A DNA stretch of 41,469 bases from an uncultured Lachnospiraceae bacterium. Its GTDB lineage: Bacteria; Bacillota; Clostridia; Lachnospirales; Lachnospiraceae. The translations under genes and the position numbers were made by a program. Shown here piece by piece: positions 5,512 to 41,368 of this stretch. Each line of letters opens with the position of its first letter. Position 1 is the first letter of the stretch. Location of the stretch: the NCBI GenBank assembly GCA_947175055.1, contig CAMWLJ010000024.1, positions 1-41,469 on the forward strand. Reading direction: 5' to 3'. The notes beneath the pieces were generated by a model, which saw only the letters and a program-made list of their open reading frames with translations, did not search any database and was not told the origin of the DNA.

Positions 5512-6534
5512 ATGAATTTTTCAACCTTATCAGACTGTCATAAACAATTGCAAGATATTCTCGTAATCGGGAAAACTATCGAACGGGATGACCGGAAATA
5601 CCACATTCTCGGTATGACTTTATCTGATGAAGCAAACCTCTATATCATCGAACCATACGATAGGCTAGAACCCATAAACAGAAAAGGCATCCGCAACCAC
5701 AGACGGATATTAAAAGAACACGAGGGAAGAAACTGCTGTTATTTACATTGCAGCGAATTTTATCTTGGCGATGCAAAACTGCAGGTACAGGGCGGCACGA
5801 GCGGTTCCTTAGAATACTCCTTAGAGGATTATGGAACAATCCAGCTCTTTCTTGACATGATGAGTGCCGGATGGACGGTTCCGGAATGGCTTAAAGATAC
5901 TGATTGGACCGACCTGCAGATGGTGACGCTGCATATTGCGAATATAGAAAAGCTGCCTGACTATTCACCAGCCATGCCTATAACTATAACCCACCGCCCG
6001 GATCCCACTCAGCATATACTTGAAAAAACCATCGTTCTGAATGTAGGCAAAAGCCGCTCATTTTCCTTTACGGATGATAATGGAGATAATGTGCAGTGCC
6101 ATATCAATACTATAACGCTAATTGATGTGTGGAAAAATACAGAAGAAGAACTCAGTGATCCCAAACTGTCAGAAAGATTTTCCCCAGAACAGTTAGAACA
6201 GTTACAACAAGTAAGAAAGAAAAGTTACGAAACATTGGAGCAGTGCTGCCCGAAAGGGATGTGCTATATCGGCATAGAATATGAATGCAGCAAAAATTAT
6301 GATCTGGTATTCCACTCCAAACAATATTTGACATCACGCCCGGAAATACACCAAGGAAGTTCCAGTTTTCTTATGATGCGCTTAAAGCCCGATCAGGAAA
6401 CAGGAACGCACGGCCTTCCGTTAAAAGGCTGTGTGATACAGACGCCGTTCTCCCCGGATACTACCAAAATTCCTGCGGAACTATTTCTGTACTACAAAAG
6501 AATAAATGCATGGACAGAAACAGTTCCATCTTAA
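5512..6534 (+). CDS. Uncharacterised 340-residue soluble protein
   Basis: I do not recognise this family. The start is the ATG at 5512, seven bases after GGAGG; an ATG six bases earlier sits too close to that site. The protein is hydrophilic, with no signal peptide or membrane segment. The N-terminal part (DILVIGKTIERDDRKYHILGMTLSDEAN) reads as a beta-rich domain. The middle contains two short acidic stretches, and the C-terminal part has several Cys and aromatic residues (EQCCPKGMCYIGIEYECS). It has its own promoter, lies alone between a decayed permease and yitT-like gene, and is intact, so it is probably expressed cytosolic protein of accessory origin. Confidence 0.7.
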   Translation: MNFSTLSDCHKQLQDILVIGKTIERDDRKYHILGMTLSDEANLYIIEPYDRLEPINRKGIRNHRRILKEHEGRNCCYLHCSEFYLGDAKLQVQGGTSGSLEYSLEDYGTIQLFLDMMSAGWTVPEWLKDTDWTDLQMVTLHIANIEKLPDYSPAMPITITHRPDPTQHILEKTIVLNVGKSRSFSFTDDNGDNVQCHINTITLIDVWKNTEEELSDPKLSERFSPEQLEQLQQVRKKSYETLEQCCPKGMCYIGIEYECSKNYDLVFHSKQYLTSRPEIHQGSSSFLMMRLKPDQETGTHGLPLKGCVIQTPFSPDTTKIPAELFLYYKRINAWTETVPS

Positions 6535-7460: not shown

Positions 7461-8573
7461 TCAACCAGGCATATCAATCCTCAATGGGCTTTTATCATAA
7501 TTTGCACTCTTAGCCGCAACTTTTTCTTTCATTAAAGTCTGAAGCGGATGCTTCTCCCAGCGATGAAGCTGCTGCGTCACTTCAAAAGATAACATCTGGA
7601 AAAACGGAAGGAAGCAAAGCGGTGTCAAATCTTCCCGCAGCTCAAAAGGAACGCAGAAAACTCCTTCGCCCGCATATTCCTCCCTGTTCGTGACAAGTAT
7701 TGCCCTATCCGTAACAATCCTCGTGTAGTAAAAAATTTCATCCACCCGATCCGATGCGCAGCCACCATCAATAAAGAAAACCGTATAGTTGGGGGTTAAC
7801 TGCAGATTCGGTCCATGTATATATTCTTCCAGTTCATACCAGATTCCCGGCACCTGAACCGTTTCCCCGATCTTTAACGCCCCTTCCATCGCAGTACCAA
7901 TATTGGCGCCGCATGCACATACATAAGCATTCTGCATGGCTGTCAGAACAGCGATATTCTTTTCAAAGAAATCCGGGAAAGCTTCTCTCACCTGCCTATG
8001 GACAACCGGAACCTTTTCCAGCTCTTTTTGAATACTTTTATATTCCTGCTCTGTCAAAATATGCTTTTGCCATGCAGCCTCCAATGAAAATATCATCAGG
8101 AACAGTGCCAGCGCATTCACGCCTTTTGTCACATATCCTACAGTTTCCAATCCAACGCCAAAATCTATCAGCAGATCTGCATCCTTTCTGATATCACTTT
8201 CCAGATCGCCTGTCAGTGCAATTGCCTTGCGCTCCAGTGAATGCATGACCCGCAAAGCTTCCATCGTATTCTTGCTGTATCCGGATTGTGATATGGCGAT
8301 GACCATATCACAATCCGGCACATTATGCTCGGCATGAACAAACTGAAAAGGGGTGATCAGTTTTATCTGACATTTCAAACACTGCTGCATAAACATCCTT
8401 GCACACGCTGCCCCATTATGGGATGACCCGGAAGCAACGATCCAAATATTTTCATAGCTGCCGCCTAAATACTCTCCGACTAACTTTTCTGTCAGTTCTT
8501 TGCCGTTTTTTATGTTTTCTTGCATCATTGCGGTAGTTTCTGTCACATGATCCAACATCGTTTTTCTATCCAT
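7461..8573 (-). CDS. SIS-domain sugar-phosphate deglycase, GlmS/GfrE-like
   Basis: This 370-residue protein has two SIS domains and no glutaminase domain. Visible motifs are the first phosphosugar loop (IVASGSSHNGAA), AISQSGYSKNT in the first domain, and YELEEYIHGP in the second, equivalent to the E-x-x-HGP segment of GlmS that helps open the sugar ring. It follows EIID by 15 bases. In the Salmonella gfr system a mannose-family PTS is followed by two such deglycases acting on glucoselysine- and fructoselysine-6-phosphate. This copy fits the GfrE position and the FrlB-like gene at 13.3 kb fits GfrF. Substrate is inferred, not shown; another amino-sugar phosphate is possible. Confidence 0.82.
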   Translation of the reverse strand: MDRKTMLDHVTETTAMMQENIKNGKELTEKLVGEYLGGSYENIWIVASGSSHNGAACARMFMQQCLKCQIKLITPFQFVHAEHNVPDCDMVIAISQSGYSKNTMEALRVMHSLERKAIALTGDLESDIRKDADLLIDFGVGLETVGYVTKGVNALALFLMIFSLEAAWQKHILTEQEYKSIQKELEKVPVVHRQVREAFPDFFEKNIAVLTAMQNAYVCACGANIGTAMEGALKIGETVQVPGIWYELEEYIHGPNLQLTPNYTVFFIDGGCASDRVDEIFYYTRIVTDRAILVTNREEYAGEGVFCVPFELREDLTPLCFLPFFQMLSFEVTQQLHRWEKHPLQTLMKEKVAAKSANYDKSPLRIDMPG

Positions 8574-8588
8574 ACCGATCCAGCCCTT

Positions 8589-9416
8589 CTATATTCCAAG
8601 TATTCCAGTCAGGCTTCCGATTATCCCAATGACAAGGATCATAAGCAACGCCACCGTAGTCTTCAACTTTTTCTTGGTCACAAGCCAATAGATGAAACCG
8701 GTAAACAGCAGCGGGATGATTCCCGGAATGATCCCGTTCAATATATCCCCGATGATGATCGCACTGTCTCCCTCCCCATAGCTCAACGGTATATTTACCG
8801 TAACCATGGTGGCGATCATGGCTCCTATCGACATCAGACCGACTATTGCCGCCCCATATGTAACTTTATCCATCAAACCGCCCTGCTGCATTTTGGTCAG
8901 GAAGCCCGCCCCAAGCTTATAGCCTCCCATCATACAGATATAACGCAGGATAATATGTGGGATATTGAAAATAAGCAGAAACAGGATCGGGCCGAGTATG
9001 TTCCCCTGCAGCGCCAGTGAAGTGCCGATTCCGGTGGCGATGATCCTGAGCGTGCCCCATAACAGAGAATCCCCGATCCCAGCCAGCGGTCCCATCAATC
9101 CTACTTTTACGTTATTAATGGATGATGTGTCAAAATCCTCCTGCGTAGAATTCTGTTCTTCCATTGCGCTGCTGATGCCAAGGATCAGTGTTGACACGTG
9201 GGGTGTTGTGTTAAAAAACTCCAAATGTCTCTGCAAAGCTTCCGCTTTCTCTTCCGGCTTATCTTTATAAAGCTTTTCAAGGATAGGAACCATCGCAAAT
9301 CCGTATCCTAAATTCGCCTGCCTTTCATAATTCCAAGTCCATTCCATTGTAAAGGAACGCCAGAACACTTTCATCAGATCTCTTTTATTTAAAACTTTTG
9401 TCTCAGAAGTCGTCAT
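8589..9416 (-). CDS. PTS mannose-family EIID component
   Basis: A 275-residue membrane component of a mannose/fructose/sorbose-type phosphotransferase system. The N-terminal LMKVFWRSFTMEWTWNYERQ and G-[FY]-A-x-x-[IM]-[PV]-x-[LI] (GYGFAMVPIL) segments are EIID hallmarks, as are VGLMGPLAGIGDSLLWGT in the middle and several C-terminal membrane helices. It forms the translocation channel with EIIC. The ATG at 9416, eight bases after GGAGG, is preferred over the GTG and ATG just upstream. It overlaps the end of the EIIC gene by 14 bases, indicating coupled translation. Confidence 0.95.
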   Translation of the reverse strand: MTTSETKVLNKRDLMKVFWRSFTMEWTWNYERQANLGYGFAMVPILEKLYKDKPEEKAEALQRHLEFFNTTPHVSTLILGISSAMEEQNSTQEDFDTSSINNVKVGLMGPLAGIGDSLLWGTLRIIATGIGTSLALQGNILGPILFLLIFNIPHIILRYICMMGGYKLGAGFLTKMQQGGLMDKVTYGAAIVGLMSIGAMIATMVTVNIPLSYGEGDSAIIIGDILNGIIPGIIPLLFTGFIYWLVTKKKLKTTVALLMILVIGIIGSLTGILGI

Positions 9417-10173
9417 CTTCATCACCTCCTGCTAACGCCGTTGACACCTGTGCCGGCTGGATCCCTACGATGATCAGCGCAGTCACTACTCCCAATAATG
9501 CAATTCCGGTTACCGGAATATTCAGATAAACCGCCAGAAGGAATCCAAGAAACAAAAATACTGCATTTTTCTTGTTAACGATCATACTCGCCAGTATTGC
9601 AAAACCGAGAGCCGGCATTAATCCGGTCGCAATGGTAAGTCCGTTCTGGACAAATGAGGGGATCGCATTCAACACCGTTGACATTACCGTATTTCCAAGA
9701 TAATATGCGGTTGCCACGAACACACCGAGTGGAAGATTGAAATACAGAAATCCGCCAAGCATATGCATCCTCGATACCCCTTCCCCATTTCCTTCCTTTG
9801 CATATTGGTCTGCCTTATGCACAAAGTAAGGCAGGATAAATATTTTGCAGGCATTTTTTAATATCAATGCCAGTGACGCAACCGGTATGCCGATCGTCAA
9901 AGCTACTTCCGGCGAATTGCCTGACGCCAGCGTCAGTGCCGCCCCCAGGACACCTCCCGAGATCATTTCCGGCGGGATCGCACCGCCTACGGAAAATGCA
10001 CCAATAAAAGCAAGTTCCATCATCGCACCGATAATGATGCCCGACTTTACATCTCCCATGACCAGTCCTGTCAATGTACACATGACAATAGGGCGGTCAA
10101 GAAGACCAGTACCTGCCAAAAATGTCGCATTCCCTATCATTGCTACCAAGCCTAGCAAAATAGCCTGTAACAT
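9403..10173 (-). CDS. PTS mannose-family EIIC component
   Basis: A 256-residue polytopic protein with the EIIC sorbose-family pattern: LDRPIVMCTLTGLVMGDVKSG, then GAMMELAFIGAFSVGGAIPPEMISGGVLG, the conserved sugar-site region, followed by further hydrophobic segments. It carries the sugar across the membrane together with EIID and is phospho-coupled to EIIB. GAGGAGGG precedes the ATG. It is the third gene of the EIIA-B-C-D order and starts 21 bases after EIIB. Confidence 0.95.
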   Translation of the reverse strand: MLQAILLGLVAMIGNATFLAGTGLLDRPIVMCTLTGLVMGDVKSGIIIGAMMELAFIGAFSVGGAIPPEMISGGVLGAALTLASGNSPEVALTIGIPVASLALILKNACKIFILPYFVHKADQYAKEGNGEGVSRMHMLGGFLYFNLPLGVFVATAYYLGNTVMSTVLNAIPSFVQNGLTIATGLMPALGFAILASMIVNKKNAVFLFLGFLLAVYLNIPVTGIALLGVVTALIIVGIQPAQVSTALAGGDEDDDF

Positions 10174-10194
10174 AAGTTTCCCTCCTCTCGTTTG

Positions 10195-10665
10195 TTAAAT
10201 CACATCTTTTGCCATTATCTTTGTATCACTCGGAACCTGTCTGATCTCTACTTCCAAACCAGATTCGATCAATTCTTTTAACTTATTTTTTTCATCCTCT
10301 GTGACAAAAACCGCCTTGGAGATCTGTGTCGTATTCTCTCTTGATTTAACCCCGCCCAGCGTAATGCTCTTGATCATTCCGGTTTCTTTTGCAAGAAAAT
10401 ATACGTCATCCACGGATTCAACAACAATAAACAAATGATATTTGTCCGTGACTCCTGATTTCAGCGCCTTTACCGAATCCTCAAGATTTTTGATCACAAG
10501 TTTTGTATTCTGGGGTTTCGCAAGCTTAATACCCGCCTTCCTTACTTCGTCTCCAGGTACACTGTCATTTGCGATCAAAATACAGTCACTTCCCAGAATC
10601 TGGTTCCACGCCATTGCTACCTGCCCATGCAACAAACGATGATCCACTCTCACATTAACGATCAT
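10195..10665 (-). CDS. PTS mannose-family EIIB component
   Basis: The 156-residue protein starts IVNVRVDHRLLHGQVAMAW. His13 in the R-[IV]-D-x-R-L-x-HGQV motif is the phosphorylated residue of mannose-family EIIB. The length matches a stand-alone EIIB. The ATG at 10665 has GGAGAAGG five bases upstream; an in-frame extension of 20 codons upstream has no support. It is 13 bases after the EIIA gene. EIIA and EIIB are separate chains here, unlike the fused ManX of enterobacteria. Confidence 0.95.
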   Translation of the reverse strand: MIVNVRVDHRLLHGQVAMAWNQILGSDCILIANDSVPGDEVRKAGIKLAKPQNTKLVIKNLEDSVKALKSGVTDKYHLFIVVESVDDVYFLAKETGMIKSITLGGVKSRENTTQISKAVFVTEDEKNKLKELIESGLEVEIRQVPSDTKIMAKDVI

Positions 10666-10678
10666 TACCTTCTCCTTT

Positions 10679-11104
10679 CTAAAACTCCTCGTCTTCTCCC
10701 TGCTGGTTTTCAAGTACAATATCACTGCAAAAATGCACGATATCCGGAATTATTTCTTTTATTTCATTCTCTACATCCACGGCATTATCTGCAGATACCA
10801 TAGCCGCTGCCGCTGTGATGACCAGTGGCAGGCTCATGCCGCTGATCAGTCTCATATTGGGCCTGTCCAGATATTTCATAAACTCATTGTTAATACTTCC
10901 CCCGAACAGATCTGTACAGACGATCCAATTTTCTTCCGGTTTCATTTCATCCATGAAATATTTAACTCTGGGCGCTACGCTATCTTCTCCGTCAACATAG
11001 GCGCAAAGGACTTCCACACATTCCTGCTTCCCCATGATCAGTTCCAGTGAAGAGAGCATACCAGCGGCAAGATTTCCATGGGATGCCAGTAACATTTTAA
11101 CCAT
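10679..11104 (-). CDS. PTS mannose-family EIIA component
   Basis: A 141-residue cytosolic EIIA of the fructose/mannose type. It begins VKMLLASHGNLAAGM; His9 is the residue that accepts phosphate from HPr. The middle DGEDSVAPRVKYFM and VCTDLFGGSINNEF segments are standard for the fold. It is the first gene of the PTS operon and diverges from the first GntR gene with only 70 bases between start codons, so operator sites for that regulator should lie in this gap. A GGAGAG precedes the ATG. Confidence 0.95.
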   Translation of the reverse strand: MVKMLLASHGNLAAGMLSSLELIMGKQECVEVLCAYVDGEDSVAPRVKYFMDEMKPEENWIVCTDLFGGSINNEFMKYLDRPNMRLISGMSLPLVITAAAAMVSADNAVDVENEIKEIIPDIVHFCSDIVLENQQGEDEEF

Positions 11105-11121
11105 TTTCTCTCCTTTCTTTC

Positions 11122-11150
11122 TTGATTATTTTTTTCTATGTTTCTATAAT
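11122..11150 (+). promoter_or_regulatory. Promoter of the tandem GntR genes
   Basis: TTGATT (11122-11127) and a perfect TATAAT (11145-11150) are 17 bases apart, 24 bases before the first GntR start codon. The following bases form an AT-rich partial palindrome (TATAATGTAACTATA) that could serve as an operator facing both this gene and the PTS operon. Confidence 0.7.
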
Positions 11151-11174
11151 GTAACTATATTTCAGGAGGTGCCT

Positions 11175-11873
11175 ATGGTGCAAAATCATTCCGCCAAGTA
11201 TATTTATGACATTATCCGAAGTAGTATTGAAAACGGAATATATGCTTATGGACAGCCAATTCCACCGGAGCGCACACTGGCTGACCTTTATCTGGTCAGC
11301 CGCATGACGATACGAAAGGCAACAGACCTCCTTGTCAACGAGGGGCTTCTCTACCGTAAGCAGGGAAAAGGCACTTTCGTGTCACTCCCCCGGCTTCATG
11401 CATCCAACGCCATTACATCCACCAAAAAGTATCTTGAAGATAATGGTTTGCAGCCTTCCACCAATGTATTTTTCACCGGCATGCGCGAGGCTGGCTACAA
11501 ATACGGCTCCATATTCCAGATAGATGAACACGCCCAGATATATCAGCTTTTCCGCCAGCGCCTTGGGGACGGCGTACCTTATACGATCGAATATACTTAC
11601 CTTCCCTTAAGCTATGTACCAAATATTACAGATTATGATTTTGCCCATGCTTCCCTCTATCAATGCCTGAAAGATAACGGAATCGCTTTAAGCCACAGCC
11701 ACCAGACGCTGGATCTGGTCCTGGTAAACCAGCCTCAATCCACATTGCTGTCTGTTCCTGACGGGACAAGCACATTTATGCGCAAATCCACAATTTATGA
11801 TATAAATGACCGTGCTGTTGAATATACCCTGTCCTATTCGATTGCCGAAAAATACGTATTTAAAATATCCTAA
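11175..11873 (+). CDS. GntR family regulator with UTRA domain (first)
   Basis: The 232-residue protein has an N-terminal winged helix (residues about 8-75; PPERTLADLYLVSRMTIRKA, then GLLYRKQGKGTFV) followed by a UTRA effector domain (HutC/FrlR subfamily), recognised by GDGVPYTIEYTYLPL and the terminal AVEYTLSYSIAEKYVFKI strands. UTRA domains bind phosphorylated sugars or amino acids and release the repressor. AGGAGG five bases before the ATG sets the start. It diverges from the PTS operon and is followed 10 bases later by a second regulator of the same family, so the two may form heterodimers or split two promoters. Confidence 0.93.
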   Translation: MVQNHSAKYIYDIIRSSIENGIYAYGQPIPPERTLADLYLVSRMTIRKATDLLVNEGLLYRKQGKGTFVSLPRLHASNAITSTKKYLEDNGLQPSTNVFFTGMREAGYKYGSIFQIDEHAQIYQLFRQRLGDGVPYTIEYTYLPLSYVPNITDYDFAHASLYQCLKDNGIALSHSHQTLDLVLVNQPQSTLLSVPDGTSTFMRKSTIYDINDRAVEYTLSYSIAEKYVFKIS

Positions 11874-11883
11874 AGGAGTTTAC

Positions 11884-12609
11884 ATGAACCCTTACCTGCA
11901 TCTTGCCGCTGACCGCGCCGCCGAAGAAATTGAAAATTATATCATCACAAACCGGTTGCAGCCTCATGATCGTCTTCCTTCCGAACGGAAATTTTCTGAA
12001 ATGTTAGGCATTAACCGCATCACTTTCCGCGAGGCCATAAAAAGGCTGGAAAACGAACATCTGCTTTATAGCCTTAAGGGCAGTGGGACTTATATAGCCC
12101 CTCACAAGCTCCGAACCAACACCGGGGTTAATTTTTCCTTCCATTCCTACTGTAATGCAAATGGTTACAAAAGTTCAAGCAAGGTTTTAAACATATACCA
12201 AACAATCGGAACCCCATTTATCTGCCAGAAATTAAACATCCCTACGCATTCCTCTATCTACGTTTTAAAGAGGATCCGCTATATAGATTCCAATCCGGCA
12301 ATGCTTGAGACCACCCACATTGCCGAATCGTTATGCCCCGGCCTGAACCGATTTGATTTTGACCAAGGATATCCCTCATTATTTGAGTTATTATCCAATG
12401 AGTACCATATCTATCCGCAGAAAACCAGCTACTCCTTGGGTATGACTTATGCTGACACCGATACATCCCTGCACTTGAATCTTAAAAAGGGAAGCCCCCT
12501 GTTCTATTTCAATGTGACAACATCTACAGAGAACAACCAGGTCATCGAGTACTGCCAGACCTTAAAACGTATGGATTTCTTTGGAATCAACAGCGACTTA
12601 TATCCCTGA
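11884..12609 (+). CDS. GntR family regulator with UTRA domain (second)
   Basis: A 241-residue protein with winged helix LPSERKFSEMLGINRITFREAIKRL at residues about 30-55, wing GSGTYI, and a UTRA domain containing IYVLKRIRYIDSNPAMLETTHI and the last strand VIEYCQTLKRMD. It is clearly diverged from the neighbour upstream, so it is not a recent duplicate. AAAGGAG precedes the ATG; the gene is co-transcribed with the first regulator. Its last codons overlap the converging HAD gene by 12 bases. Best guess is control of the FrlB-like/HAD operon or of the PTS operon. Confidence 0.92.
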   Translation: MNPYLHLAADRAAEEIENYIITNRLQPHDRLPSERKFSEMLGINRITFREAIKRLENEHLLYSLKGSGTYIAPHKLRTNTGVNFSFHSYCNANGYKSSSKVLNIYQTIGTPFICQKLNIPTHSSIYVLKRIRYIDSNPAMLETTHIAESLCPGLNRFDFDQGYPSLFELLSNEYHIYPQKTSYSLGMTYADTDTSLHLNLKKGSPLFYFNVTTSTENNQVIEYCQTLKRMDFFGINSDLYP

Positions 12610-13251
12610 GCTTTCCAGATGACCGATCACCTCAAACAAATCCCTGCAGACGCATTCACACAGCATTTCTATCTCTTCGGATGGTTCTGTAAGATCTGGG
12701 ATCATGATCACCTGGCACCCTGCCGCATAGCCAGCCTTTATTCCATTGACGGAGTCTTCCAATACCACACATTCGGCAGGCTCAACATCTAACATAGCTG
12801 CTGCTTTCCGATAAATTTCAGGATGCGGCTTTCCCAACGTTACTTCATCACCACATATCATACTATGGAAGACATCCCTTATCCCTGCGATATGTAAAAG
12901 TCGTTTGGCCATCTGCCGGTTCGTGCTGGTTGCCAAGCAGTACCTCAGTTTTTTCTTTATAAGGTACTGATGGAGTTCTTTAAAACCGGGCTTTATTCCC
13001 AATCCTTCCTTTTGGAAAATCTCCCATATGATCTCTCTATATCTGTCTCTGAATTTTTCCAGCGGAAAATCCTTTCCAAATTCTCCATAAATCATCTGTG
13101 CAAAAAGCCCGCCGTTCACTCCCCTTGTCTTTTTCAAAAAATTCTCGTCAAGGGCATATCCAAAGGAACTTCCTGACATTACCATTGCCCTGTCATATAC
13201 GCGTTCTGAATCCAGGATCAACCCATCCATATCAAATAAAACCGCTTCCAT
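12598..13251 (-). CDS. HAD family phosphatase/phosphoglucomutase-like
   Basis: A 217-residue HAD hydrolase of the subfamily with a helical cap. Motif I is FDMDGLILDSE (nucleophile Asp7, general acid Asp9), motif II is CLATSTN, and motif III/IV is GKPHPEIYRKAA with VLEDSVNGIKAG. This resembles beta-phosphoglucomutases and sugar phosphatases such as YcjU or YniC. The gene starts three bases after the FrlB-like stop and has no ribosome binding site of its own, which indicates translational coupling. In this setting it may remove phosphate from a dead-end sugar phosphate or isomerise a product; that is inference. Confidence 0.9.
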   Translation of the reverse strand: MEAVLFDMDGLILDSERVYDRAMVMSGSSFGYALDENFLKKTRGVNGGLFAQMIYGEFGKDFPLEKFRDRYREIIWEIFQKEGLGIKPGFKELHQYLIKKKLRYCLATSTNRQMAKRLLHIAGIRDVFHSMICGDEVTLGKPHPEIYRKAAAMLDVEPAECVVLEDSVNGIKAGYAAGCQVIMIPDLTEPSEEIEMLCECVCRDLFEVIGHLESSGI

Positions 13252-13254
13252 ATT

Positions 13255-14265
13255 CTAATATTCAAATTGCCTGTAATAGCGGCGGATGTCCAGATCATGC
13301 CCGGTATTCGCTTCAAAATGCTTCCCAAGCCTTCCGATCAGGAGCGCTGTACTTATGATCGGCGCTACCATAGGCATAAATTTCTCATCCAGCCCCGGCA
13401 TCATATAATCCATAACATCGATCACTACCAGATCGTCCGTATATGTCTCCAAAAACTTCTGCGCCCTGTCATCCAGTTTTCTGCATGCACCTGTCCCCTT
13501 TACAAGGAACACGCAGGTATCCTTTTCTACCAGTTCCAATGTTCCGTGGAAAAACTCGGCACTTGTCACCGACTTTGTCTTCAGCCACTGCATTTCTTCC
13601 AATACACACATCGAGAACAAGTATACCTCTCCCCAAAGTTCTCCGCCGCCTACCCACATCATATAATCCCTTGCGTGGTATTTCTTGGCTATTTCGGATG
13701 CGATCGGATCAAACTTGGTATGCGCCTCTACAAGGGTATCCGGCAGTTTCTTAAGCTGTTCCATAAATTCGTCATACTCATCAAAATCGCCATTGCATTT
13801 GAGCAGCCCATAGAACAGACCGAACATTGACAGATACTCATACTCCACACCCTTGAACACTACCAGCGGCAGGTAATAGTCGCTCAATCTTCCCAAGGGG
13901 GATTCCTTATCGATTACCATGGAGGCAATTCTGATTCCCTGCTCTTTACACCACTTTGCCGCCGCAACAGTCTCCTTTGTATCTCCTGATTTAGAGCCCA
14001 TGATGACCAATGATTCCCTCGTCAACTGACTATGGCCTGTCAGCACGATCTCACCTGCATGCTGCACATAAACCGGAATCTTTGTTTTCTGTTTCGCGAT
14101 CTCTGCAAAATGGAGCATCATTGCCATTGTTCCGCCAACTGCAATAAAGAATATATTGCTATACCCATCCTTGGTAATCTCCTCGGCATAAGCGGCTCCT
14201 TTTTCAATCAAAGCAATCTGACCTGTCAGATTTTTCCTGTAATCAGCTTCATCAAATTTAATCAT
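13255..14265 (-). CDS. FrlB-like fructosamine-6-phosphate deglycase (SIS)
   Basis: The 336-residue SIS protein has FIAVGGTMAMM and IMGSKSGDTKETV loops in the first domain. The second domain has the catalytic-region motif SAEFFHGTLELVE (Glu237, His240) and the ending GHDLDIRRYYRQFEY. FrlB of E. coli shows the same EFxHGxLEIVE motif and a DDRRYY...EY tail. FrlB splits fructoselysine-6-phosphate into glucose-6-phosphate and lysine. The ATG at 14265 is preceded by AAGGAGG. It heads a two-gene operon with a HAD phosphatase and lies next to a PTS operon holding a second SIS deglycase. Confidence 0.85.
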   Translation of the reverse strand: MIKFDEADYRKNLTGQIALIEKGAAYAEEITKDGYSNIFFIAVGGTMAMMLHFAEIAKQKTKIPVYVQHAGEIVLTGHSQLTRESLVIMGSKSGDTKETVAAAKWCKEQGIRIASMVIDKESPLGRLSDYYLPLVVFKGVEYEYLSMFGLFYGLLKCNGDFDEYDEFMEQLKKLPDTLVEAHTKFDPIASEIAKKYHARDYMMWVGGGELWGEVYLFSMCVLEEMQWLKTKSVTSAEFFHGTLELVEKDTCVFLVKGTGACRKLDDRAQKFLETYTDDLVVIDVMDYMMPGLDEKFMPMVAPIISTALLIGRLGKHFEANTGHDLDIRRYYRQFEY

Positions 14266-14324
14266 TTGGAAATCCTCCTTTTGTTTAATAAATTGGTTTG
14301 CTGGTTTATTGTTTGAACACCTTA

Positions 14325-14353
14325 AATATATATGCATTTTGTATAGTTGTCAA
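14325..14353 (-). promoter_or_regulatory. Promoter of the FrlB-like/HAD operon
   Basis: On the minus strand a perfect TTGACA (14353-14348) is followed after 17 bases by TATATT (14330-14325). The start codon is 60 bases downstream of the -10 element. The four TATACCA boxes lie just upstream of this promoter. Confidence 0.72.
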
Positions 14354-20950: not shown

Positions 20951-21994
20951 CTAGATCCGGATCACTGCTTTCACAACATCCGCCTTATTATTCACACTGT
21001 AATCCATCGCCTTCTGCGCCTCATCCAAATCGAAGATATCCGTCACGATACCCTTCAGGTTCACCTTACCTGCTGCCACCGCCTCGATCGCCATCGGGTA
21101 GATATGCCGGTACCGGAAGATCGTCTTGAAGGTCAGTTCCTTGTCCAGAGCCAGACTCATCGGCAATGTCATCTCACCGCTCTTGCTGTAGCCTACCAGC
21201 ACGATCGTTGCACCCTTCTTGGTCATATGCATGGTCTGCACGGTGGTGATCTGTGTTCCCGCCGTTTCGATCGCCAGATCACATCCCCTGCCCTCCGTCA
21301 GCTTCATGACCTCTGCCACCGCGTCCACGCTGCTGCCGTTGATCACGCCGTCCGCACCCAGCTCCAATGCTTTCTGCAGACGTTTCTCAAGAACATCCAC
21401 CACATACACCTTCGATACACCCATCGCCTTCAGCGCCATCATCGTCACCAGGCCGATGCAGCCCGCACCCATAACGACTGCCGTCTGTCCTGCCCTTGCG
21501 CCTCCCTGCATGGCCGCGTGGAATCCCACTGCCAGCGGCTCGATCAGCGCGCCTTCCATAGTACTCACATTGTCCGGCAGCTTAAAGCATAAATCCGCCT
21601 CATGGGCTACATATTCCTGGAAAACGCCATCCACCGGCGGTGTCGCAAAGAAGACCACATCCGGACACAGATTGTAGCGTCCCGTCTTACAGAATTCACA
21701 GTGGCCACATGTCTTACCCGGCTCCAGCGCAACCCTGTCGCCGACCTTCAAATGCTTCACATCCTTACCGACTTCCACCACTGTACCGCCCGGCTCGTGT
21801 CCCAGCACGAAAGGCGGCTTCACGATAAAGTCACCGATCGCTCCTGACTCATAATAGTGCAGATCACTGCCACAGATTCCAATGTACTCCAGCTTTACCA
21901 GTACCTCGTCGTCCTTCACCTGTGGAATCTCCCGCTCCTCGATGCTGATCTTGCCGATATCATGCATTACCGCAGTTTTCATTGTCCCTTGCAT
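20951..21994 (-). CDS. Zinc-dependent sorbitol/xylitol-type dehydrogenase
   Basis: A 347-residue medium-chain dehydrogenase. The catalytic zinc ligands Cys41 (GICGSDLHYY), His66 and Glu67 (GHEPGG) are present, as are four structural zinc cysteines (96, 99, 102, 110). The NAD-binding motif is GAGCIGLV, followed by VVDVLEKRL. The GSDLHYYE motif is typical of sorbitol and xylitol dehydrogenases, so a polyol-to-ketose reaction is likely. GGAGAG precedes the ATG. A consensus promoter and a 23-bp operator shared with the neighbouring ROK repressor gene lie upstream. Confidence 0.9.
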   Translation of the reverse strand: MQGTMKTAVMHDIGKISIEEREIPQVKDDEVLVKLEYIGICGSDLHYYESGAIGDFIVKPPFVLGHEPGGTVVEVGKDVKHLKVGDRVALEPGKTCGHCEFCKTGRYNLCPDVVFFATPPVDGVFQEYVAHEADLCFKLPDNVSTMEGALIEPLAVGFHAAMQGGARAGQTAVVMGAGCIGLVTMMALKAMGVSKVYVVDVLEKRLQKALELGADGVINGSSVDAVAEVMKLTEGRGCDLAIETAGTQITTVQTMHMTKKGATIVLVGYSKSGEMTLPMSLALDKELTFKTIFRYRHIYPMAIEAVAAGKVNLKGIVTDIFDLDEAQKAMDYSVNNKADVVKAVIRI

Positions 21995-22042
21995 AGCACT
22001 CTCTCCTTTGGATGATTTAATATATTTTTGCTTTTACACACA

Positions 22043-22065
22043 CTTTATTAAATAGTTTTATTATG
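22043..22065 (-). promoter_or_regulatory. Predicted ROK operator of the dehydrogenase gene
   Basis: CTTTATTAAA and TTTTATTATG form imperfect inverted half sites around a 3-base spacer. The same 10-3-10 layout with nearly the same bases occurs before the ROK gene at 23512-23534. The site begins 14 bases downstream of the -10 element, a position suited to repression. Confidence 0.6.
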
Positions 22066-22079
22066 TTGCTAATTTTTAT

Positions 22080-22106
22080 ATTATACCGACTCGTCGCTCC
22101 TGTCAA
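22080..22106 (-). promoter_or_regulatory. Promoter of the dehydrogenase gene
   Basis: On the minus strand a perfect TTGACA (22106-22101) precedes a perfect TATAAT (22085-22080) with a 15-base spacer; a TAATAT two bases further gives 17. The leader is about 80 bases and contains the operator. Confidence 0.65.
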
Positions 22107-22215
22107 TCTTATTTTCAAAAATCCATTATTTCCGTGATATTAGACAACATACCTATTCTGTTTTTGTGAAAAATGCTAATTGAGATCCCGTGTCCCTGCC
22201 GGTCCTGCACCTTTC

Positions 22216-22340
22216 GTAACTATTCAGCCTTCGGCTTCCTAGTTACTGAATCCAGCCTATTCCAGATTTGCCTTCTGCAAAGAGGCCGGATTCTTCTCAA
22301 CCTTTATGCGTTCTCACGGCCTTTGCAGTAAATGCAAAGA
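22216..22340. repeat. Two small hairpins between ROK and dehydrogenase genes
   Basis: GTAACTA (22216-22222) pairs with TAGTTAC (22240-22246), with an inner GCC-TTC-GGC stem, and CTTTGCA (22322-22328) pairs with TGCAAAG (22334-22340). They follow the ROK stop codon on the minus strand and may end its transcript, although neither has a clear T tract. No gene was found in the 374-base gap. Confidence 0.4.
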
Positions 22341-22368
22341 CCTGGGTCGAACTGTTACCACTTTTCTC

Positions 22369-23496
22369 CTATATCTGACTCACAAATGTCTCGATCACTT
22401 TCAACGCTGCGCCCAGTGCGGCCGCTGCCACCTTATAGTCGCACACTTTCACATAAGGCTCCTTTTCTCCAAAGGTATTCCTGTCCACAACTTTATCCCA
22501 CAGTTCCTGAAGATGCGTCCCCATGCAGCTCCCTACATAGCCCCCCAAGACAATATCGCAATCCAGGACCATGTGGATATTATTGACGGCGATAGCTAGA
22601 TAGTCTGTATAGGCATCCCATATATTTGCCGCCTTTACATCTCCCTGATCTAACAGTCTAAAAAACTGTTCCAGCTTTCCGTCCGCCGCCTCAGACAAAC
22701 GCCATGCAGCACAGTAAGCATCCAGGCATCCCTTTTTCCCACAGTAGCATCTTTCCCCGTCGATAACTACTGTCATATGGCCCACTTCTCCGCACCGGAA
22801 ATTCCTGCCCTGTATCAATTCATTATCACTAAAAACGGCTCCGCCTACCGTATTGCTCAAAGACAGATAAAAGAAATGCTCTGCTTCCTCGTTCTGGATT
22901 CCTTCCGCATAGGCTCCCGCATTTGCATCATTCAGGAAGAAACTAGGATAAGCAAAAAACCGGCCCACCGAGGCAAAAGGAATCGCCTCCACACCCAGTA
23001 TATGAGAATACGTTATCAATTCCTTATCCAAATCTATGATCCCGGGAAAAGATATCCCTATGCCTAAAATCTTATCCCTGTCAGCGCCGCTCTCCTCCAG
23101 AAAACTTTCCAGCCTCTCATTGATCTGCTGATAGTACTCGTCTCCTGAAATATAAGGCTTGCAGATGCGCTCATATTTCAGGATCTCTCCCACGATATTC
23201 GTCAACACCAGTGTAATGTGATTCTTGGTGATATCCAGTCCCACCGCCAGCCTGGCATTGACAACTGCAGACAAGGCCTTTGCCCGCCGTCCTCCGGTTG
23301 ACTGCAATTCGCCTTTCTCCTCTACCAGCCCTTCCTCTATCAGTTCTTTCGTCATCTGCGTCGCTGTCGGCAGACTGATCTTCAGCCCATATGCGATGTC
23401 CGGATTTGACACCGTTCCCATCTTACATATATAGCGAAAAACTCTGTTTCTGTTCTTCTTCTTTACTTCCATGTTTGTTATATTTTTTCTGTCCAT
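22369..23496 (-). CDS. ROK family transcriptional repressor (NagC/XylR-like)
   Basis: The 375-residue protein joins an N-terminal winged helix (RVFRYICKMGTVSNPDIAYG, then LPTATQMTKELIEEGLVEE) to a ROK sugar-binding domain. The ROK part has VGLDITKNHITLVL, GISFPGIID and the zinc site CYCGKKGCLDAY after GEVGHMTV. Proteins of this layout are sugar-responsive repressors such as XylR and NagC. GAGGAA precedes the ATG. The gene has its own promoter overlapped by a palindrome that recurs before the neighbouring polyol dehydrogenase gene, so it probably represses both. The inducer may be xylose, xylitol or sorbitol. Confidence 0.92.
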   Translation of the reverse strand: MDRKNITNMEVKKKNRNRVFRYICKMGTVSNPDIAYGLKISLPTATQMTKELIEEGLVEEKGELQSTGGRRAKALSAVVNARLAVGLDITKNHITLVLTNIVGEILKYERICKPYISGDEYYQQINERLESFLEESGADRDKILGIGISFPGIIDLDKELITYSHILGVEAIPFASVGRFFAYPSFFLNDANAGAYAEGIQNEEAEHFFYLSLSNTVGGAVFSDNELIQGRNFRCGEVGHMTVVIDGERCYCGKKGCLDAYCAAWRLSEAADGKLEQFFRLLDQGDVKAANIWDAYTDYLAIAVNNIHMVLDCDIVLGGYVGSCMGTHLQELWDKVVDRNTFGEKEPYVKVCDYKVAAAALGAALKVIETFVSQI

Positions 23497-38790: not shown

Positions 38791-39999
38791 TTATTGATGC
38801 AAATATCTTTCAATAACTGCCGCATACTCTTCTTTCCAGTTCTCAATTTCAAGCCGCAATGGTTTTGACAACTCTAAACTGAAAATTCCCATAATCGATT
38901 TTGCATCAATCACATACTTCCCAACACAAAGGAATACATCCCCTTCTATTTTGCTCATATCATTGACAAATGCTTTTACCTTATCTACAGAACCAAGCAG
39001 GATTTCAAAGGATTTTACAGTTTTCAGTCCCCCCTGTTCCTGCCCATAGTTTGCAAGCAGGAGACCTACTTCTTCCCTGTCCGGCATGGAACGGATTGCT
39101 CCCTTTCTGGTTGTCACAATGGATGCTGCTGCATTTGCAAAAGAAAGCATTCTTTCCAAATCCGCCTCCGCCAGACCGTCCAGCCCATGCTCTAACAGAA
39201 AGCTGATCACACAGGCGCAAAAGGTATCCCCTGCTCCTGTCGTATCAATCGTCCTGTCACTCAGGAATGGTTTCCCATAAACTTTCTGCCCCATATAGTA
39301 TGCAAGGCTTCCTTCGTTACCCAAAGTTACATTGACCAGCTTAACATTTGACCGTTCTTTGATCATCTGCACGCCTTCATCATAATCTTCTATTCCGGTC
39401 AGCCACTTTATCTCATTATGCGCAATCTTTAAGACATCACATTCCCCGATTCCATACCAGATTGCCTTTTTCGCATCCTCTTCGCTCTCCCATAAAGGCT
39501 CCCGCAAATTGGGATCAAAAGAGATCAGTTTACCTTCACTCTTTGCATATTCTACAGCCGCTTTTGTTGCTATAGCAGCCGGTTCATTTGTGAGCGAAAG
39601 GGAACCGAAATGGAATACCCTGCATGCATCAATCAGTTTTCTGTTAATTTCCTTCTCCGTCAACATGATATCCGCTCCCGGTTTTCTGTAAAATGAAAAA
39701 TCCCTGTCACCGCCCGGCAGTGTATGTACCAAAGCCAGTGTTGTGTTCACATTCCGGTCATAAAGCAGCCCTTCATCGGAAATTCCGGTCTCCCTGATCG
39801 TTTTCCCCAGCATCCGTCCGAAATAATCATCTCCTACTTTGCCAATGAATGCGGTCGAATATCCCAGACGCGAAAGCATTGCCAGTACATTGCATGGCGC
39901 TCCGCCCGGATTTGCCTCAAATAGCGGGTTTCCTGCTGTACTGCTGCCACTTTGGATAAAATCAATCAGCAGTTCTCCCAACGCAACAACATCAAACAT
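38791..39999 (-). CDS. PfkB sugar kinase fused to an HPr-like domain
   Basis: The 402-residue protein has a complete PfkB/fructokinase domain (1 to about 318): FDVVALGELLIDF, GGAPCNVLAMLSRLG and the ATP/catalytic motif DTTGAGDTF with base Asp258. Kinases of this type end near residue 320. Residues about 325-402 form an HPr-like domain: VDKVKAFVNDMSK, then DAKSIMGIFSLELSKP. KSIMG equals the Ser46 site of Firmicute HPr (Ser368 here), but the HTRPA motif with phospho-His15 is replaced by VDKVKA. The ATG at 39999 lies eight bases after GGAGAG and overlaps the symporter stop by eight bases. Fructose released from sucrose or fructans is a likely substrate. Confidence 0.85.
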   Translation of the reverse strand: MFDVVALGELLIDFIQSGSSTAGNPLFEANPGGAPCNVLAMLSRLGYSTAFIGKVGDDYFGRMLGKTIRETGISDEGLLYDRNVNTTLALVHTLPGGDRDFSFYRKPGADIMLTEKEINRKLIDACRVFHFGSLSLTNEPAAIATKAAVEYAKSEGKLISFDPNLREPLWESEEDAKKAIWYGIGECDVLKIAHNEIKWLTGIEDYDEGVQMIKERSNVKLVNVTLGNEGSLAYYMGQKVYGKPFLSDRTIDTTGAGDTFCACVISFLLEHGLDGLAEADLERMLSFANAAASIVTTRKGAIRSMPDREEVGLLLANYGQEQGGLKTVKSFEILLGSVDKVKAFVNDMSKIEGDVFLCVGKYVIDAKSIMGIFSLELSKPLRLEIENWKEEYAAVIERYLHQ

Positions 40000-41368
40000 G
40001 CCTGCCACTCTCCTTTCTTTCCTGAATCTCCTGCACGATCTTGTTATAGGCTTTTTTGTTCAGGCGGTAAAAATATAAGACTGCCGCTGTTATGATCCAT
40101 AACACGCCGGGAACAGTAGTGAACGAATGCTTGATCACAGCCAGCACTGCCGGATTCTGCTGCTGATTCGCCACATATCCGAAACTGCCCAAAACGCCTG
40201 CCAGTACAGAAGTTCCGATTGCCATTCCAATCTTATTCCCCAAAGAAATGAATGCGTACTGAAAACCGTCATTACGGAGCCCTGTCTTCCATTCACCATA
40301 TTCTACGCAATCCGGCACAATCGCATAAATCGCTGTGTTAAATCCTGAGAAGAAGAATTGTGCCAGACATGAAAACAGGTAAAACGGAACCGGTGATCTC
40401 CCGACCGTAAAAAAGTACATACAAAACATGCTGATCCCTGTTAGCAACGCAAATATGGAAGCGGAACGCCCTTTATTGTTTGTCAGCCTGAATACCAGAG
40501 GGAAACAGGCTGCGCCAATAATGGAAGGTATAATGATAAAAAGGGAATAGGTACTGAATAATGTCTGGTTTCCCTCCACATATGTAAAATAGTAAAGTGC
40601 ATCCGCATTTCTTCCATAAAGCGTTACCCCGAACAAGAACTGCCCTGCCACCGCGATCATATACGGTCTGTTTTTTGCAACAGCAGATAGCTGTACTTTC
40701 AGAGGTGTTTTTTCTTTTTCCGGCACTTCTACAACTTCTTTTGTTTTTGCAAAACAGAAAATATGGCATGCTGCAAAAATACATCCATAGATAACAGCGA
40801 TCAAAAGATAGCCTCTCCTGTCATTTCCCCTGCCAAGTGCAGCGATCAAGGGTACTGTTATGATATTGATAATGCCAATGGCAATCATCGCACTGACGGA
40901 ACGGAATGTATTGATCTTCGCCCGCTCCTCTATATTCTGCGTCATGGCACCGCACAAAGTTCCGTAAGGGATGTTGACACAGGTATAGCCTAATACCAGA
41001 ATGCAGTAGGTAACTGCCATATACACGATCTTTGCAGTCGATGACCAGTCCGGATGCGCCCAGAAAGTCAGCATCAATACAAGGGCGGTCAGCGGCGCAG
41101 CGATCAAAAGCCAGGGGCGGTATCTTCCCCACCTCGTATGCGTCTTGTCACTCAACCCGCCGATCACAGGATCATTGATCGCATCCCAAAATCTTGAGAA
41201 CAGCATCAGCCCTGCAACCGCGCTCATCCCTATCCCAAAAACATCCGTATAGAATATCATCAGGAAGTTCCCCACAAACATCCAACTGAAATTACACCCC
41301 ACATCTCCCATGCCATAGGCAATCTTACTGATCAATGGTACTTTGACATCTGTATTCTTCTGCTCCAT
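39992..41368 (-). CDS. GPH family sugar:cation symporter (MFS)
   Basis: A 458-residue protein with twelve membrane segments. The first half shows GMGDVGCNFSWMFVGNFLMIFYTDVFG (in part) and RFWDAINDPVIGGLSDKTHTRWGRYRPWLL (in part), where the Asp residues correspond to the cation site of MelB-like glycoside-pentoside-hexuronide transporters. It imports a sugar or glycoside with Na+ or H+. GGAGG precedes the ATG, which lies 18 bases after the stop of a VOC-type gene entering from the right edge. The kinase gene overlaps its end, so uptake and phosphorylation are coupled. Confidence 0.93.
   Translation of the reverse strand: MEQKNTDVKVPLISKIAYGMGDVGCNFSWMFVGNFLMIFYTDVFGIGMSAVAGLMLFSRFWDAINDPVIGGLSDKTHTRWGRYRPWLLIAAPLTALVLMLTFWAHPDWSSTAKIVYMAVTYCILVLGYTCVNIPYGTLCGAMTQNIEERAKINTFRSVSAMIAIGIINIITVPLIAALGRGNDRRGYLLIAVIYGCIFAACHIFCFAKTKEVVEVPEKEKTPLKVQLSAVAKNRPYMIAVAGQFLFGVTLYGRNADALYYFTYVEGNQTLFSTYSLFIIIPSIIGAACFPLVFRLTNNKGRSASIFALLTGISMFCMYFFTVGRSPVPFYLFSCLAQFFFSGFNTAIYAIVPDCVEYGEWKTGLRNDGFQYAFISLGNKIGMAIGTSVLAGVLGSFGYVANQQQNPAVLAVIKHSFTTVPGVLWIITAAVLYFYRLNKKAYNKIVQEIQERKESGRHV

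Follow-up and report, generated by a model that had tools for sequence, protein, structure and literature searches.

A gene in an uncultured Lachnospiraceae bacterium encodes, in a single reading frame, a putative PfkB-family fructokinase followed by a domain that appears to be an HPr without its phosphotransfer histidine. We propose, with a probability of roughly 0.45, that the protein combines a fructokinase with an integral serine-only (Crh-like) HPr domain, which would act as a brake on the entry steps of its own operon. Under this proposal, a polyol or sugar would be taken up by the GPH symporter and not by the phosphotransferase system (PTS), a sorbitol-dehydrogenase-like enzyme would probably yield fructose, and the kinase would convert it to fructose-6-phosphate. 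At high levels of glycolytic intermediates, HPr kinase (HprK) would phosphorylate Ser368 of the fused domain, and the charged domain might then damp the symporter, the kinase, or both, in a manner resembling inducer exclusion. Such a brake would serve a sugar route that otherwise lies beyond PTS sensing. The features discussed below are collected in Table 1; the window is the whole 41,469-nt stretch of DNA that was analysed.

Table 1. Positions of the fusion gene, its protein parts and associated genes in the window
Feature	Position	Strand	Support
PfkB fructokinase / HPr-like fusion gene (putative), 402 aa	38791..39999	-	105 homologues of fused region
PfkB (ribokinase-family) domain, probable fructokinase, residues 1-310, DTTGAGDTF intact	39070..39999	-	PDB and Foldseek matches
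Linker, residues about 318-327, length varies among relatives	39019..39048	-	pLDDT < 50 at 321-326
Predicted HPr-fold domain, residues about 328-402, His15 absent, active-site loop shortened	38794..39018	-	
Ser368 codon, HPr/Crh Ser46 equivalent, within DAKSIMGIFSL	38896..38898	-	alignment to Crh Ser46
GPH-family sugar:cation symporter, directly upstream of fusion gene	39992..41368	-	TIGR00792, 377.7 bits (cut-off 231.35)
Sorbitol-dehydrogenase-like zinc dehydrogenase	20951..21994	-	PDB 5vm2, ketose reductase 1e3j, sorbitol dehydrogenase 1pl6
ROK-family regulator	22369..23496	-	

The fusion is a conserved protein family

The fusion gene comprises 402 codons, and its start codon lies within the 8-nt overlap with the end of the symporter gene. 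An earlier note, made from the letters of this DNA, had described an in-frame PfkB and HPr-like fusion with the domain beginning at about residue 320 and a candidate phosphorylation site at Ser368. Our analysis agrees on the single 402-aa protein, its coordinates and the residue numbers, and adds that the gene lies on the minus strand, which the note left unstated.

The C-terminal region was used as a query against proteins of similar total length, yielding 105 matches among 135 candidates. PF00294 is carried by 102 of them, 95 are PfkB fusions between 395 and 410 aa long, and the length is exactly 402 aa in 59 and 401 aa in 18. The exact motif DTTGAGD[TA]F is missing in nine matches, including three odd proteins (P0043, P0105 and P0106) that were set aside as extra fusions because each is found on one contig of 1.4-3.6 kb. 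One of these, P0043, has a ROK regulator in frame with the HPr-like domain on a single 1.8-kb metagenomic contig, and may have arisen through a large in-frame deletion within this operon or as a chimera made in assembly.

Among 80 loci from named genomes, eight hold the full-length fusion at 72-89% identity, while the remaining 72 are essentially kinase only (55-63% identity). In one of the eight (L069) there is a stop near kinase codon 21 (about 6022-6136) with the domain intact; here too the domain may have outlived the enzyme. Two genera have intact fusions: the source genus, with three out of 77 genomes and a shortened form in a fourth, and the genus of Lachnospiraceae bacterium A2, with three out of 29. 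No further intact fusion was found among the matches listed for a sample of 397 family genomes, where the closest kinase-only genes, with 74% and 69% identity, stop near codon 320. One genome with an intact fusion (G474) also has a second, decayed domain copy with an in-frame stop (L207:1632-1817, contig C59).

The search for the same fusion in relatives, suggested in the earlier note, thus revealed a conserved family with 95 near-full-length members, most of the data coming from draft assemblies or assemblies derived from metagenomes. The same note had allowed that the join might be a sequencing frameshift, or that the kinase normally ends near codon 320. The latter holds for related kinases outside the fusion group, but not for the fusion proteins. 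That two genes were joined by a frameshift, by read-through or in assembly could be imagined from those shorter kinases and from known two-gene versions (L138 and L145, see below), yet the 401-402-aa frame recurs in 77 of the 105 matches, which come from several sources, as well as in records of named genomes, and dN/dS of the domain is 0.06-0.23 across the 12 intact pairs reported. Given this conserved reading frame we reject an artefact, whose probability we regard as negligible.

Kinase half

The fusion protein matches PF00294 with 189.3 bits (gathering cut-off 25.8) and contains DTTGAGDTF, which together place it in the PfkB/ribokinase family. PfkB/ribokinase-family kinases also fill the best 50 Foldseek matches listed for the full model. 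With fructokinases as its best PDB sequences (first 5ey7, E 1.8e-44), the kinase half is probably a fructokinase, although the fructokinase equivalog NF006957, its top-scoring NCBIfam model, reaches only 199.5 of the 450 bits needed.

The HPr-like domain lacks His15 and retains the regulatory serine

Profile searches and the predicted structure place the C-terminal domain with HPr/Crh. Its predicted order of elements is beta-alpha-beta-beta-alpha-beta-alpha, the profile match is significant, and Crh and the CcpA-Crh complex 1zvv are among its closest PDB sequences. PF00381 gives the fusion protein 18.4 of the 23 bits of its gathering cut-off, the NCBIfam HPr cut-off is likewise missed, and Foldseek with the domain alone returns HPr with an E value of 0.0011 at best, none falling below 0.001. 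The HPr fold claimed in the earlier note, which an unlike prediction would have contradicted, is therefore backed by both homology and the model.

The loss of the phospho-His15 motif and the intact Ser46-type region, both pointed out in that note, hold across the family. No conserved histidine is present at the His15 position in the 104 matches aligned on DAKSIMG, and the surrounding loop is shortened by a three-residue gap relative to HPr/Crh, as placed by the aligner. Serine occupies the Ser368 position in all 105 matches, within a segment (DAKSIMGIFSL) that is nearly invariant over its whole length and matches the HPr/Crh regulatory segment. The domain thus resembles Crh in having His15 replaced and the Ser46 segment kept, but departs from it in loop length and on the CcpA-binding face: the residue aligned with Arg17, through which HPr/Crh contact CcpA, is a nearly invariant Asp.

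An HPr-folded module without a phospho-switch, serving to stabilise the protein or to bind others and keeping its serine for helix capping, has to be weighed here. Ser368 does lie immediately N-terminal to the short second helix in both predicted models, and one relative (L110) has Ala at this position. Helix capping, however, would leave the near invariance of the whole segment unaccounted for, along with the association with HprK described below, and we think this reading unlikely.

HPr kinase, HPr paralogues and CcpA

The source genome encodes HprK (contig C41). The Pfam HPr model gives four strong matches in this genome and, more weakly, finds four separate small proteins as well as the fusion. 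Apart from the fusion, the genome holds four separate His-less HPr-like proteins. The HPr homologue on the hprK contig itself (G000:C41; L022, L023) has Glu for His15 and a perfect NAKSIMG, while two of the three His-bearing HPrs (G000:C14, C37 and C13; L024-L026) are without Ser46. Judging from these residues, phosphotransfer and serine signalling look divided among the HPr paralogues of the genome.

HprK is present in 28 of 159 genomes of the phylum, the source genome included. HPr-like matches of more than 80 bits were found in five genomes, again including the source, and all five are HprK-positive, compared with 23 of the other 154 (Fisher test, P-value 1.2e-4, with the threshold chosen after the list was seen and shared ancestry ignored, which tempers this support for our proposal). 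Matches of any strength number 16 out of 159, of which 11 score a weak 35-41 bits and could represent ordinary HPr; one of the weak ones is in a genome without HprK (G514).

The earlier note had also suggested that the domain could bind CcpA and so take part in catabolite control. This is the least supported part of its reading, and is weakened by the Asp aligned with Arg17 and by the result that no gene attains the CcpA cut-off of 442 bits, the best match scoring 206, in an assembly that is 81% complete. As a Crh-like co-repressor, the domain would, once phosphorylated, bind CcpA or a different LacI-family protein and repress genes. This would be in keeping with Crh and 1zvv being among the closest PDB sequences and with the 22 LacI-family matches to the CcpA model in the genome. 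The same Asp, the shortening of the adjoining loop (subject to the gap placement) and the lack of a CcpA match above cut-off in this incomplete assembly nevertheless make such a role very doubtful.

The fusion gene lies in a sugar operon with a GPH symporter

In all eight named fusion loci the sorbitol-dehydrogenase-like gene and the GPH symporter gene are upstream of the fusion (the symporter gene is split in L066), and in six of them a ROK regulator precedes the dehydrogenase, whose gene in other fusion loci lies immediately before that of the symporter. The window differs: its ROK and dehydrogenase genes (20951-23496) are 15-18 kb away from the symporter and the fusion gene (38791-41368), which adjoin the contig end, the dehydrogenase gene being about 18 kb from the symporter gene; this distant placement may be due to either a rearrangement or a contig artefact. 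PDB relatives of the dehydrogenase are an alcohol dehydrogenase, a ketose reductase and a sorbitol dehydrogenase. The likely route would begin with polyol uptake and lead through oxidation to fructose, which is then phosphorylated, with no part for the PTS. Gene order in the operon varies within the genus: in L162 (G062), which has no fusion gene, a dehydrogenase gene is downstream of the GPH symporter and none was seen just upstream. Elsewhere in the window (7461-14337), two SIS-domain isomerase genes and GntR-type regulators were recognised by eye beside PTS genes, which we take to encode a mannose-family PTS (EIIB, EIIC, EIID), possibly for a glycated amino acid.

The domain is sometimes retained after kinase loss

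The genome G074 carries, behind the same symporter, an 88-codon gene consisting of ten residues of the kinase start and the whole domain, and DNA on both sides of the junction matches intact loci. The same type of junction is found in P0111, P0112, P0115, P0116 and P0121 (5, 11, 2, 56 and 1 contigs, respectively), and P0110 (1 contig) resembles it. Other in-frame forms resume at about intact residue 291 (P0117, 2 contigs), 302 (P0123, 4), 323 (P0129, 4) and 316 (P0141, 9). P0113 (6 contigs) does not fit a single deletion; by eye it has two, and resumes in the linker. In total, the kinase has been deleted and the domain kept at no fewer than five distinct in-frame junctions, with P0129 grouped with the G074 type and P0131, whose N-terminus could not be placed, left out. 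The metagenomic forms are known as proteins and not as loci, G074 being the sole such locus available as DNA in the genus, and they were found via the domain, which skews their number in favour of domain retention; it is discounted accordingly as support for our proposal. In comparisons of the kinase-deleted copy with intact genes, dN/dS was 0.11-0.27 in eight of ten pairs, the other two being saturated; since this range is not clearly distinct from that of the 12 intact pairs, it was rejected as a means of dating the deletion. In another genus (L204), a 90%-identical symporter is directly followed by a separate HPr-like gene, with no kinase and with a mere fragment of the dehydrogenase.

A GPH orthologue with at least 91% identity is present in 11 of the 77 genomes of the genus; more distant GPH loci (G012, G014 and G019; 75-76%) were excluded. 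In the stretches seen downstream of the symporter (only about 400 nt in G076), three of the 11 have the fusion, one has the domain only, one a decayed domain remnant, six have nothing, and none has the kinase only. Seven genomes have thus lost the whole gene, one of them keeping a decayed piece, so the domain is not essential, a point that counts against our proposal.

These data bear on whether the domain tunes its own kinase, as the earlier note had supposed. In the purely intramolecular form of this idea, phosphorylation of Ser368 would alter the activity or oligomerisation of the attached fructokinase, giving fructose-1,6-bisphosphate feedback via HprK. The covalent bond retained in 95 near-full-length proteins speaks for it, as do HPr-like genes that overlap or closely follow a fructokinase gene in two GH32 operons. 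Control of enzymes by HPr-type proteins also has precedent: published reports describe binding of PfkB by E. coli HPr (PMC8167557) and inhibition of MgsA by unphosphorylated Crh, which controls this enzyme according to the state of its serine (PMC9631020). Kinase-less forms of the domain, however, disfavour the kinase as the only target: the domain persists without it behind the same symporter in G074 and L204, other kinase-deleted proteins exist, and among the 11 genomes chosen by their symporter the domain without the kinase occurs once and the kinase without the domain never. We therefore find a purely intramolecular regulator rather unlikely.

Separate HPr-like genes in other sugar operons

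Separate HPr-like genes accompany a fructokinase gene at two loci. In L138, ABC transporter genes (assigned by eye), a GH32 gene and a fructokinase gene are followed by an HPr-like gene that overlaps the kinase stop; in L145, a GH32 gene and a fructokinase gene are followed by an HPr-like gene about 57 nt behind the latter, and a LacI-type regulator is further on. No GPH symporter was found in the stretch seen at either locus, and one fixed target is therefore insufficient, which complicates our proposal. A separate HPr-like ORF was seen in the stretch covered at two of the 72 kinase-only named loci; the one at L110 was discounted as fructokinase-linked, with Ala for Ser and a distance of more than 160 nt, and a copy of this kind behind another fructokinase also tells against our proposal. 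In G480 (L205:4277-8310), an HPr-like gene is located between rhaA and rhaD, in the order rhamnulokinase, rhamnose isomerase, HPr-like gene, rhamnulose-1-phosphate aldolase.

Around 29 separate HPr-like loci (L175-L203), which scored best among 100 matched genomes, no PfkB-like ORF was found within about 1.5 kb. Most of the HPr-like family is thus untied to PfkB-like kinases, a further point against our proposal. Some stand-alone His-less HPr-like proteins are kinase-deleted derivatives, and others occupy sites such as the thiI neighbourhood (labelled by eye).

Both the separate HPr-like genes in other sugar operons and the junctions that delete the kinase and keep the domain lead us to favour an operon-dedicated serine-only switch, here welded to a fructokinase, over a purely intramolecular regulator. 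More broadly, and tentatively, with the odds somewhat against so wide a statement, Lachnospiraceae may have evolved operon-dedicated serine-only HPr domains that relay the HprK signal to non-PTS operons (polyol, fructan/sucrose, rhamnose) by direct action on a transporter or kinase; the domain would have been welded to a fructokinase in at least two genera, and the receiver sometimes kept over the enzyme. If so, HprK would control metabolism directly at enzymes and transporters through dedicated receivers, in addition to its action by way of HPr, Crh and CcpA. Little is known about carbon catabolite control in gut Clostridia, and the conserved fructokinase pairing together with the separate copies in sugar operons provides a concrete list of targets, with Ser368 as a single-residue focus.

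Comparison with known systems

No description of a sugar kinase/HPr fusion was found in the literature titles and abstracts searched, a coverage outside which most subscription journals fall. Among the closest known systems is Crh (catabolite repression HPr) of Bacillus, which shares with the fused domain the HPr fold, the absence of His15, the Ser46-type site and the best PDB sequence matches. Crh has Arg17, whereas the fused domain has an aligned Asp, a shortened loop and an attached kinase. Crh is, in addition, a small protein on its own, and in Parageobacillus its residue 15 is Gln (PMC9631020). HPr, the PTS phosphocarrier, has the fold and the Ser46 segment in common with the domain, which is without the phosphotransfer histidine and misses the HPr cut-offs.

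Nearer at hand are the stand-alone His-less proteins of Lachnospiraceae (69-90 aa) named 'HPr family phosphocarrier', which are unfused, up to 94% identical to the domain and have the same DAKSIMG. The common stand-alone type beside thiI (L002, L011, L176 and L178, by eye) differs at its C-terminus, and the copy in this genome shows 54% identity. FPr and multiphosphoryl transfer proteins also carry an HPr domain within a larger polypeptide, often near fructose genes (PMC2405797), but are part of PTS phosphate transfer.

The arrangement proposed here has a counterpart in LacS-type GPH symporters. In LacS, the IIA domain is phosphorylated by HPr on His. There it is fused to the transporter, whereas here a serine-only HPr domain is fused to the adjoining kinase. 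One report, together with its reference list, describes binding of HPr(Ser-P) to a lactose/H+ permease and control by HPr of LacS, itself a GPH symporter (PMC10710835). As portrayed there, LacS-type symporters with fused IIA likewise bear a PTS-derived domain on a non-PTS sugar module, through which signals of the PTS state are received.
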